Source of the DNA: Prevotella sp. E15-22
Lineage (GTDB): Bacteria; Bacteroidota; Bacteroidia; Bacteroidales; Bacteroidaceae
DNA length: 64,000 nt
Assembly: GCF_023204875.1 (NCBI RefSeq)
Contig: NZ_CP096247.1
Span: 248,001-312,000, forward strand
Direction: 5' to 3'
Shown piece by piece: positions 11,294-50,433 of the stretch. Made by a program: the position numbers and the translations under genes. A model generated the notes under the pieces. The model made no database searches. It was not told the DNA's origin and saw only the letters and a list, made by a program, of their open reading frames with translations. The first letter of the stretch is position 1. The number at the start of each line of letters is the position of its first letter.

Positions 11294-11404
11294 GGTTCAT
11301 TGGGATAATCCGAACGAGTCATTGCAATAATCCCTATGGGGGTATAGAGATGATTGCAATGAGTCATAGAAACCATCCGAACAGGTCATAGAAACTATCC
11401 CTTT
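11294..11404. repeat. Array of five 22-23-base modules, one inverted
   Basis: Modules start at 11294, 11316, 11338, 11361 and 11383. Four are direct and share GGTCAT or GAGTCAT near the start and an ATCCG/ATCCC word about 12 bases later. The third is inverted. Modules two and three form a hairpin: TCATTGCAATAATCCCTAT (11319-11337) against ATAGAGATGATTGCAATGA (11344-11362), a 19-base stem with two mismatches and a six-base loop. The array has no coding frame and lies upstream of the BlaI-type promoter. Confidence 0.8.
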
Positions 11405-11958: not shown

Positions 11959-13689
11959 ATGGCATCATTCATCATTTATATCATACGCTGGGGGTTAGTA
12001 CTTACACTCCTCTATTCGTTCTTCGGACTGATGATGAAGCGTGAGACGCTGCATCATGTCAACCGTGTGGTGTTGTTGACTATTCTCATAACCAGCATGG
12101 TGCTTCCAATGTGTCAGATAGAGACTAATGAGACCAATATTGTGGCCAAAGGGCGTGAGATGATTGAATGCCAGATTCAAAACGTCCACAGTCCGCTTCT
12201 GACCAATATGCCACTCTCCACCAATAGTCCGGATGTGGAGGCATCACTACAGCCACTTCCTGTTAGTAGAGACTCACATCAGGTTCAAGAGGCTAAGGCC
12301 TCACCGAATGCCAATATCTATATCGTCGGCCTCATTGCCATTTATATAATTGGTGTTGTGGTGAGCATCCTGTATTTCCTTTGGCAGGTTTTCTCCTTGC
12401 TTCTGCTCATTCATCGTGGCAAGCGTATTGAGGTGGAGGGTCTGCCAAACTATGTGCATGTGTTGACTCATCCCGCTGTAGATACTCCATGCAGTTGGAT
12501 GCGGTGGATGATTCTCAGTCCGTCTGACGCTATGCAAGTGAAAAAGGGAGAGAAGTCGGCACAGCTCATCGTCAGCCATGAGCAGGCTCATATCTGCTTG
12601 GGACATTCATGGGACATGCTCTTTTGTGAACTGGTATGCCGCATGCTGTGGTGTGTGCCCTTTGTATGGATGCTACGCCAAGACCTGCGCGATGTTCACG
12701 AATACCAGGCCGACCGTCGTGTGCTCTCCTTGGGTGTTAAAGATGAAGAATATCAGCTGTTATTAATACGTAAAGCCACTGGCACGGGACTGCAGCCTGT
12801 CGTCAACGCTTTGAACCAAAGTCCAATTAAAAGAAGATTCAAAATGATGTATCAGAAACCATCCCGACGATGGGCGTCGCTGAAAGCAGCCTATCTTTTG
12901 CCCCTGAGTGTAATGGCACTTGCTGCCTTTGCTCAAGTTAAGAACGTTGCCCAACCTTTGTCTGGCAGCAATGACAACGATTATGTCTACACCTTTGTGC
13001 GCGACGAGTCGTTAGAGTATGATGCCAAGAAACCGATGCCAGATAATGCTGACAAGCGCTATGAAATGGTGATGTATTGGTTGGAGCAGAACATGCAGTA
13101 CACCGATGACATGCGTGCACGCGGCATTGGTGGTAATATCACCGTTCAGCCTTATGTCAACTCTGACGGTAGCTATGGCAATGTAAAGTGGCCAGACAAC
13201 TTAGACCCTGCGTTGAAAGCCGAGGTACAACGCCTAATGAAAGCGATGCCTAAACCACTGATGAAGGGACTATTGCCCCTTACTACCAAGCAAGGCTATA
13301 CGTATCTCGTTGTACCCATCTTTGATCGCACGCAGAGACATCAACCGTTTAACAAACGCGAAAGAATGATAGTTTGGCATGAGGACAAAGATAGCAAAGT
13401 GCCTCCGCGTTTGCGTCAGTATTACTTGGTCAACATTCCTTTGGGTGCCACCTACGTTGATATGGAAGGCTCGTCACATATCATCACCCGTCGTGGTATG
13501 GTTCTCCAAAGGTCAGCCAGTGACTACTTTGGATTGATACTACAGGAAAACGTAAAACTGTCTCTTAATGGCGAGCCTTTCGATAGGAACAGTCTGCCCG
13601 ATCTTCCTGCCGATGACCTGAAGAAGGTGGTATTCAAGAAGAGTCCTTCTTCGCCAGAGCAGCATCTTGTCGATTTTCAAACCAAGTAG
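11959..13689 (+). CDS. BlaR1/MecR1-like M56 membrane metallopeptidase with C-terminal periplasmic domain
   Basis: The 576 residues have membrane spans at about 3-20, 30-48, 113-137 and 306-325. The zinc motif HExxH appears as SHEQAH at about 196-201, in the cytosolic loop typical of M56 sensors. Instead of a penicillin-binding sensor, the end is a periplasmic region of about 250 residues. Its stretch around 391-455 (VQPYVNSDGSYG, then LDPALKAEVQRLMKAMPK) resembles a TonB C-terminal domain, a combination common in Bacteroidota M56 proteins. It should sense an envelope signal and cleave the BlaI-type repressor encoded just upstream. The ligand is unknown. A terminator follows at 13746-13788. 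Confidence 0.87.
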   Translation: MASFIIYIIRWGLVLTLLYSFFGLMMKRETLHHVNRVVLLTILITSMVLPMCQIETNETNIVAKGREMIECQIQNVHSPLLTNMPLSTNSPDVEASLQPLPVSRDSHQVQEAKASPNANIYIVGLIAIYIIGVVVSILYFLWQVFSLLLLIHRGKRIEVEGLPNYVHVLTHPAVDTPCSWMRWMILSPSDAMQVKKGEKSAQLIVSHEQAHICLGHSWDMLFCELVCRMLWCVPFVWMLRQDLRDVHEYQADRRVLSLGVKDEEYQLLLIRKATGTGLQPVVNALNQSPIKRRFKMMYQKPSRRWASLKAAYLLPLSVMALAAFAQVKNVAQPLSGSNDNDYVYTFVRDESLEYDAKKPMPDNADKRYEMVMYWLEQNMQYTDDMRARGIGGNITVQPYVNSDGSYGNVKWPDNLDPALKAEVQRLMKAMPKPLMKGLLPLTTKQGYTYLVVPIFDRTQRHQPFNKRERMIVWHEDKDSKVPPRLRQYYLVNIPLGATYVDMEGSSHIITRRGMVLQRSASDYFGLILQENVKLSLNGEPFDRNSLPDLPADDLKKVVFKKSPSSPEQHLVDFQTK

Positions 13690-13745: not shown

Positions 13746-13788
13746 AGGCTGGGGGATGCTGAGAAGTATTCCCCAGCCTGTCTTTTTT
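13746..13788 (+). terminator. Rho-independent terminator after the BlaR1-type gene
   Basis: AGGCTGGGG (13746-13754) pairs with CCCCAGCCT (13771-13779), with further inner pairing, and is followed by GTCTTTTTT. It lies 56 bases after the stop codon. Confidence 0.85.
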
Positions 13789-13798
13789 CCGTAGTGAA

Positions 13799-13854
13799 CG
13801 GACTCGCAGTCCGACGGGGACGGACTGAGAGTCCGAAGGCGTCGGACTGTGAGT
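13799..13854. repeat. Three palindromic units spaced exactly 22 bases
   Basis: CGGACTCGCAGTCCG (13799-13813) and CGGACTGAGAGTCCG (13821-13835) are perfect five-to-six-base-arm palindromes. A third, decayed unit CGGACTGTGAGT starts at 13843. Start-to-start spacing is 22 bases both times. The array lies between the BlaR1 terminator and the 3' end of the convergent HipA-type gene. Confidence 0.8.
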
Positions 13855-13961
13855 ATCTCGTCAAAGAACTGTTTCCAACTTTTTTTGAAAAAAAGTGTCG
13901 CCCTGACGCAATGTTTGTTTGTAATGCGACTAGTTATTTCTTGCTTGCATTCTTGTTCGTT

Positions 13962-15447: not shown

Positions 15448-15897
15448 TATTTAGACACTTATTTCTTGCTTGCAGTATCTAATCTTTTAAGTGAATTTGG
15501 TGAATAATCTTAACAATAGCGCCTCTGAGATTTAAAAATTCTGAGCCAAAAATTTTTTCTGTGCGTACAGGCGAAATATGAGCATGTTCGTAAATCACTG
15601 AAAATGAGAGACTTACGAAATTAGCTTGAAAAGTGTAAAGAATTAGAACGCAATCGAATATTCGTTTAGGTTGTAACGGAGCCTGAGTTACACTGCAACG
15701 GAGGCTGTTTTGCATGGTAAAACAGCCTCCGTTGGGTTGTAAAACAGCCTCCGTTGCATGGTGAAATCGATAGGGGTCCTCCGAAAGGTCATTTTTGACC
15801 CATTTTTGCGTTCTAGTTTGCATTTTTTCAGAACCCCTTTTTTCGGCACTATTTCTTTACATGTTGTATGGTCGGTCTTGTTAGGTTGCTTAATATC
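15448..15897. other. Intergenic region between hipB and the TlpA-like operon
   Basis: These 450 bases are mostly the 350-bp dispersed repeat (15513-15861). The minus-strand frame at 15479-15823 is treated as non-coding, because its similarity to the copy at 50 kb is at DNA level and includes the palindromic modules. The remaining flanks show no further signal. Confidence 0.7.
15513..15861 (-). repeat. Dispersed 350-bp intergenic element, copy A
   Basis: Read on the minus strand, this matches 49964-50314 on the plus strand nearly base for base, by eye over 90 percent. It begins after TGTAAA near 15861 with GGGTTCTGAAAAAATGCAAA and ends in CAGAGGCGCTATTG near 15513. Inside is a block of four 22-base modules (15669-15756). 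Modules 2 and 3 form a perfect 16-bp stem: CAACGGAGGCTGTTTT (15696-15711) with its complement at 15719-15734, seven-base loop. No terminal inverted repeats or target duplication were recognised. It starts 36 bases beyond the stop of the TlpA-like gene. Confidence 0.9.
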
Positions 15898-49918: not shown

Positions 49919-50433
49919 ATTCATGGCATAAGATTTTGTTTTTGTGTCTTGTGATATAGATGATTGTAAAAAAATACTGCTAAAAAACAGGGTTCTGAAA
50001 AAATGCAAACTAGAATGCAAAAATGGGGTAAAAATGACCTTTGGAGGGACCCCTATCGATTTCACCATGCAACGGAGGCTGTTTTACGATGCAACTCATG
50101 CTGTTTTACCATGCAAAACAGGCTCCGTTGCAGTGTAACTCAGGCTCCGTTACAACCTAAACGAATATTCGAACGCTTTCTAAATCTTTACACTTTTCGA
50201 GTTAATTTCGTAAGCCTCTCATTTTCAATGATTTACGAACATGCTCATATTTCGCCTGTACGCACAGAAAAAATTTTTGGCTCAGAATTTTTAAATCTCA
50301 GAGGCGCTATTGTAATATTTATTCCTTGTAGAAATTAATTGTAAAAATGTCAATTTCTTGAAAAAAGTTTTCTCCGATAGATAAAAAATATGTACCTTTG
50401 TATGCAAATTAAATATTAATTAAATTATAAAAC
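49919..50433. other. Intergenic region between hepT and the lipoprotein gene
   Basis: These 515 bases hold element copy B (49964-50314) and a promoter (-7 TACCTTTG at 50393-50400, with a weak TTTT at -33) for the next gene. The plus-strand frame at 50003-50338 is regarded as non-coding for the same reasons as in copy A. Confidence 0.7.
49964..50314 (+). repeat. Dispersed 350-bp intergenic element, copy B
   Basis: Same element as at 15513-15861, here on the plus strand. The 22-base modules are at 50070, 50092, 50114 and 50136. The outer module 4 is identical to that in copy A. Module 1 differs at its end, module 3 by one base and module 2 in several bases (CAACTCATG where copy A has CAACGGAGG), which spoils the 16-bp stem seen in copy A. 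The first module (50070-50085) can instead pair with 50115-50130, with one mismatch. Confidence 0.9.

Follow-up and report, generated by a model that had tools for sequence, protein, structure and literature searches.

The nearest described case known to us of the repeat considered here is BrickBuilt of Porphyromonas gingivalis, an element built from 23-nt units. In the parts of its description drawn on here (PMC4596501), BrickBuilt occurs in 19 intergenic copies, is almost species-restricted, carries no internal transposase and forms long predicted stem-loops without an Rfam match. Each copy holds 1 to 22.8 units, part of the copies bear IS5-like terminal inverted repeats, and tandem repeats of 22, 23 and 41 nt had previously been reported in P. 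gingivalis W83 (PMC4596501). Judged against these parts of the description, the Prevotella element is alike in consisting of a leader, tandem units and a tail, in being intergenic, near species-restricted and transposase-free, and in having long stem-loops and no Rfam match. It differs in its four 22-bp units and near-fixed total length, compared with a variable number of 23-nt units, and in having a subterminal imperfect repeat alone where some BrickBuilt copies have IS5-like terminal repeats. In plan the element is BrickBuilt-like, but its ends do not establish it as a MITE. Another point of reference is the group of IS200/IS605-derived elements and RAYT/REP systems, which transpose as single strands, leave no target duplication and carry a compact hairpin near each end.

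The window, a stretch of 64,000 nucleotides of the Prevotella sp. E15-22 chromosome, contains two copies of the element, delimited by alignment, genome search and end mapping: copy A at 15513-15861 on the minus strand and copy B at 49965-50313 on the plus strand (49964 if the T preceding TGT is included). A sequence-only reading had described two matching stretches of about 350 bp and had staked its case on their aligning over 300 bp; the two align over 349 bp without a gap, with 27 differences (92% identity). The match is far above chance because the genome (3.34 Mb, single contig) carries, by sequence search, 22 main copies, six that form a second subfamily, and two end fragments, so that the supposed pair is a family numbering about 28. 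Nor is the element part of a larger protein-coding gene, the other outcome that would have counted against the reading; it is non-coding. Copy A begins 36 bases, and copy B 45 bases, after a same-strand stop codon, in keeping with the spacing first given, and Pfam identifies the toxin-antitoxin neighbours hipBA and mntA-hepT as described. These loci adjoin the two window copies only, and toxin-antitoxin association does not hold as a general feature (the neighbours of the remaining 20 main copies were judged by eye and one alone was put through Pfam, which placed an HTH_3 protein 379 bp from the main copy at 3313858). The original observation is confirmed and its interpretation partly supported, the suggested small hairpin-based element without its own transposase matching the data.

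The remaining main copies are 77-95% identical to copy B, the lowest value belonging to a copy with a deletion, and the subfamily-2 copies are 77-79% identical to it over the shared part. Length is nearly fixed: 20 of the 22 main copies measure exactly 349 bp, with one of 348 and one of 288 bp, and subfamily-2 copies measure 369-371 bp (the left end of two divergent copies was set by hand). Of the two end fragments, the one at 634943 is a left end and the one at 846750 a right end. A search with the right-end pattern returned 29 matches, accounted for by the 22 main copies, the six subfamily-2 copies and the fragment. The left-end pattern likewise gave 29, namely 21 main copies, six of subfamily 2, the fragment and a site at 2931524 with three mismatches, and a reversed-pattern control of this search gave one match too. 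Most copies begin with WTGT[AC]AAGAAATA.TGC, and the right end reads AGAATTTTTAAATCTCAGAGGCGCTATTGT; by eye, WTGT lies left of all 22 main copies and CTATTGT terminates all 22. Because the bases immediately right of CTATTGT are non-random, the actual end on this side is possibly some 11 bp farther out. The flanks of the copies differ from one another, and inspection of them by eye revealed no per-copy target site duplication.

Alignment and a period scan place the core of four 22-bp units at 15673-15760 in copy A (minus strand) and at 50066-50153 in copy B (plus strand). The right tail, ending in CTATTGT, occupies 15513-15581 in copy A (minus) and 50245-50313 in copy B (plus) and is almost invariant; variation across 18 copies touches 4 of these 69 sites, compared with 86 of the preceding 280. 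A 9-bp subterminal inverted repeat joins the two ends in the best-folding copy. In copy A its left arm, AATAGTGCC, lies at 15845-15853 and its right arm, GGCGCTATT, at 15515-15523, both read on the minus strand from the folds. On the copy-A fold these arms pair in 153 of 171 cells across 19 copies, and the repeat is imperfect in many of them. The earlier statement that terminal inverted repeats were not seen holds in part, this subterminal pair being present in the best-folding copy and mismatched in others. Changes between aligned copies often affect whole words, such as GGGTC..GACC versus GGGGC..GCCCC, with length mostly kept. Foldback-templated (quasipalindrome) mutation would yield word swaps of this kind without change of length. 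Upstream of the subfamily-2 copies (L051-L056) stands a roughly 300-bp hairpin module with arms made of tandem 9-bp words or repeats, and in at least two of the copies (L054 and L055) both arms have, by eye, switched jointly to other words, a change that fits foldback-templated mutation.

Several tests bear on what the element might encode. In its longest frame the variable sites are spread evenly over codon positions (40/40/37) and a stop codon occurs at one site in 7 of 21 copies, and on these grounds a coding gene was rejected. The element ORF contains no Pfam domain; 55 protein clusters (63-184 aa, no Pfam domain) match this spurious ORF and most plausibly reflect occurrences of the element in other sequence sets. 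An assembly artefact was rejected as well, given the many loci in a single-contig genome, the separate occurrence in a metagenome-assembled genome (MAG) and the spurious ORF in the 55 clusters. An Rfam 15 scan of the window gave no family at gathering score over the element and one tRNA elsewhere, and scans of four further loci gave sub-threshold matches only (E 0.017 to 0.76) over the element or a relative of it in another genome, G017, which are taken as chance.

Folding is strong in most copies. The predicted energy of copy A is -113 kcal/mol (z -8.6), copy B folds weakly (z -2.0), and 25 of 29 copies fold better than their shuffles (z -3 or lower, 25 shuffles each). When the copy-A fold is imposed on 19 copies, 1746 of 1938 cells pair, a score that favours this fold since it derives from one of the 19 copies scored; changes on both sides occur in 7 of its 102 pairs. 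In an automatic consensus fold, covariation is small, contributing -1.25 of -34.7 kcal/mol in 4 of 53 pairs. Of 28 copies compared, 21 fold at lower energy as the minus strand, which reaches a z of -3 or lower in nine of ten tested. With both strands folding, a function of the plus-strand RNA is not favoured. Because consensus covariation is small and the minus strand folds too, a predicted palindrome at the DNA level is the safer reading, rather than a strong claim about RNA.

Simple ORF reading gave no case of a main copy interrupting a gene; at one locus (L049) a 243-aa ORF runs into the element. By the same reading 17 of 22 main copies lie downstream of a same-strand gene (binomial P 0.017), which preserves the shared orientation to the upstream gene proposed for the window pair as a tendency and removes it as a strict rule. 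The genes downstream occur in either orientation, and no common function among the neighbours is evident by eye. Six main copies, in a single orientation, directly adjoin the 3' side of a CATTGT-type 7-mer array, of which the genome has 14 loci, and in none of the six cases is the array resumed right of the element. Eight of the 14 CATTGTA/CATTGTT array loci are without an element, some of them apparently within genes. Two copies lie upstream of presumed ribosomal RNA operons and are nearly identical over 2.2 kb; near a subfamily-2 copy (L051 3466-3649) are a cobalamin riboswitch and the end of an rRNA operon. At two loci (L042 and L043) the gene region right of the element is about 98% identical over about 1.2-1.4 kb, the element copies there being 88% identical, and at L042 this region is followed by a lone 51-bp right end. 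Some 40 bp left of the element are alike at L042 (848327) and L057 (634943); they form the end of a transporter-like gene at L057, a gene absent at L042, and transport of flanking DNA is one possible account of this likeness.

The element is nearly species-restricted. Among 398 genomes of the genus, with the two best candidates per genome scored, it was found in one, its own (E 1e-20); a more sensitive search of 40 genomes added G017, with similarity to the core units, and G020, with a match of 22 bp. G017 has a many-copy family of its own, with a core of 22-bp units in other words and, to the left, TTGTAAAGATAATTC or a similar sequence (L009-L025, L101). Copy B had no match among phage and plasmid records, nor two exact element patterns among viral contigs. 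A single copy occurs in one rumen Prevotellaceae MAG, where it follows a related gene and is separated from the shared downstream gene by about 0.8 kb and an extra ORF. This copy differs from its positional counterpart at 21 of 349 sites, compared with 84% DNA identity in the next gene, and either the element has changed less than the coding DNA nearby or its exchange came afterwards. Intergenic DNA at lolC and korB in 40 genus genomes was too diverged for an empty-site comparison, the rumen MAG alone being comparable. Amplification looks quiet now, with no sign of recent jumps, since the nearest 349-bp copies differ at 11 sites or more, save the pair beside the presumed rRNA operons.

What is seen, then, is a set of about 28 dispersed copies at unrelated places, of near-fixed length, non-coding and strongly folding, with an invariant tail. 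We favour, at a probability of roughly 0.6, a non-autonomous, non-coding, species-restricted and BrickBuilt-like intergenic repeat that was moved in trans and seems quiet now. Movement in trans is what we infer, as neither an empty site nor a strain difference was seen. Its leader, its four 22-bp core units and its nearly unchanging tail could together form a single large hairpin with branches, or a cruciform. The mobilising enzyme, supplied in trans, would recognise the folded ends together with the CTATTGT at the right end and insert the element 3' of WTGT on one strand, without target duplication. Later changes may partly have been whole-word swaps inside the fold, made by foldback-templated mutation.

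Within this trans-mobilised reading, a single-strand mechanism of the IS200-like/RAYT kind is a first and rather doubtful guess, a guess because no enzyme is tied to the element. Points of likeness to IS200/IS605 and RAYT/REP elements are that no target duplication was seen, that a short motif stands left of the left end, with the same ATTGT at the right end, that placement at CATTGT arrays is on one strand and that the genome has Y1_Tnp (IS200-like) genes. There are two of these, at 1023364 and, with a borderline score (22.7 bits against a Pfam cut-off of 23), at 1848536. The likeness is incomplete: the copy-A fold pairs the left end with the right, whereas those systems have separate compact subterminal hairpins, and, unlike REP sequences, no element was matched beside a RAYT-like gene, none being found next to 1023364 and the nearest to 1848536 lying about 2.4 kb off. 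The protein with the borderline Y1_Tnp match is 443 aa long and has internal repeats, and the copy about 2.4 kb from it belongs to subfamily 2 (L054, L062).

Other origins were weighed. In a classical MITE the ends are the terminal inverted repeats of a DDE-transposase insertion sequence and spread is by cut-and-paste with target duplication, as proposed for BrickBuilt with its IS5-like ends. The short subterminal inverted repeat, clearest in copy A, the leader-minisatellite-tail plan like that of BrickBuilt and the many short gene-less copies would suit such an origin, but the repeat is mismatched in many copies and set away from the very ends, and target duplication was not seen in the flanks by eye. 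No insertion sequence or partner sharing the element ends was found in the genome either, where the end patterns fall at known copies, fragments and one weak left-end match (ORFs around the two end fragments were read by eye), and a MITE is rated improbable. A gene-cassette (integron-like) idea was considered in view of the approximately 98%-identical gene region behind two 88%-identical element copies, a matter of few cases; a bridge-RNA (IS110) idea was considered also.

Function could instead account for the repeat, if selection had kept it after genome-wide copying as a regulatory or 3'-end element, such as a terminator, an RNA-stability hairpin or a small RNA. No Bacteroides-type promoter pair was found in any of the 29 copies, and two-way simple terminators occur in six of them, which would suit the idea, but not in the other 23. 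Placement is suggestive, with 14 of 22 main copies beginning 2-110 bp past a same-strand stop, as are the near-fixed length, the almost invariant tail and the few differences of the MAG copy (21 of 349 sites) beside a next gene 84% identical. Set against these are absence from 397 of 398 genus genomes, the lack of a common neighbour function (by eye), folding of both strands and the absence of an Rfam family at gathering score, and we hold a selected regulatory role to be unlikely. The spread of copies along the chromosome raises a further alternative, in which the element would serve to organise the chromosome half nearest the origin. The 22 main copies are all confined to 2.33-3.335 and 0-0.85 Mb, some 55% of the genome's length, and a gap of that size would arise by chance with a probability of about 5e-5 (simulation) to 1e-4 (formula); five of the six subfamily-2 copies occupy the remainder, and weak GC skew would centre the main half around the presumed origin. 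This pattern was, however, noticed post hoc, dnaA lies at 0.61 Mb, and a core chromosome function would not be absent from relatives, all of which makes such a role highly improbable.

A unit of 22 bp, as in the core, also recurs outside the element. Among loci retrieved for unrelated purposes, a period scan yielded 49 matches at 22 bp and at most four at any other period, most of the 49 being the element or its G017 relatives. Across 58 lolC/korB loci of the genus, 12 of 23 arrays have a period of 22 or 44. Samples at fixed places were then compared from six genus genomes (1.2 Mb) and five of other families (746 kb): among intergenic imperfect arrays the period is 22 or 44 in 31 of 43 in the genus and in 0 of 3 in the other families, the outgroup counts being small. 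With Tandem Repeats Finder at periods of 20 or more the figures are 29 of 45 and 0 of 5; at periods of 10 or more, 29 of 128 in the genus, repeats of 10-14 bp also being common. Gene calls followed simple ORF rules, and arrays falling in called genes were omitted; in the genus these include one of period 22 and two of 44. The six-genome sample includes the window's own genome (G000) and three (G003, G010, G045) that had already shown 22-bp arrays; arrays within one genome may share a family, and the unrelatedness of families was judged by eye. The window itself holds another 22-bp-period array that is not an element copy, at 13788-13875 (64% identity at lag 22), which lies between the end of the gene at 11959-13689 and the end of hipA and looks different from the element. 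The period scan shows a weak further one at 11344. Dyad symmetry of the 22-bp units reaches P < 0.01 in 5 of 19 arrays and P < 0.05 in 6 of 19, the consensus units of the window's own element giving P 0.54; palindromic units as a universal trait were rejected on the count of 6 of 19.

The period is shared by different-looking arrays in at least nine genomes, with some palindromic units and word-by-word variation. Whether the element is one fixed family within a genus-wide class of arrays, in which a single machine with a two-turn footprint sets a 22-bp unit whatever the sequence, seems evenly poised. Candidates for such a machine are a protein that binds DNA or RNA and a copying process based on foldback, either of which would set unit length and create or maintain the arrays. 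In titles, the beginnings of abstracts, parts of PMC4596501 and passages of PMC5771137, neither the element nor a genus-wide 22-bp period is recognised, and the regularity behind the element core is possibly genus-wide and perhaps new. About 28 copies of nearly one length and varied words offer a test bed for how length and fold are kept constant. Should the common period of 22 bp prove robust, an unrecognised process would be shaping the intergenic DNA of the genus, a prospect that can be checked in public genomes.
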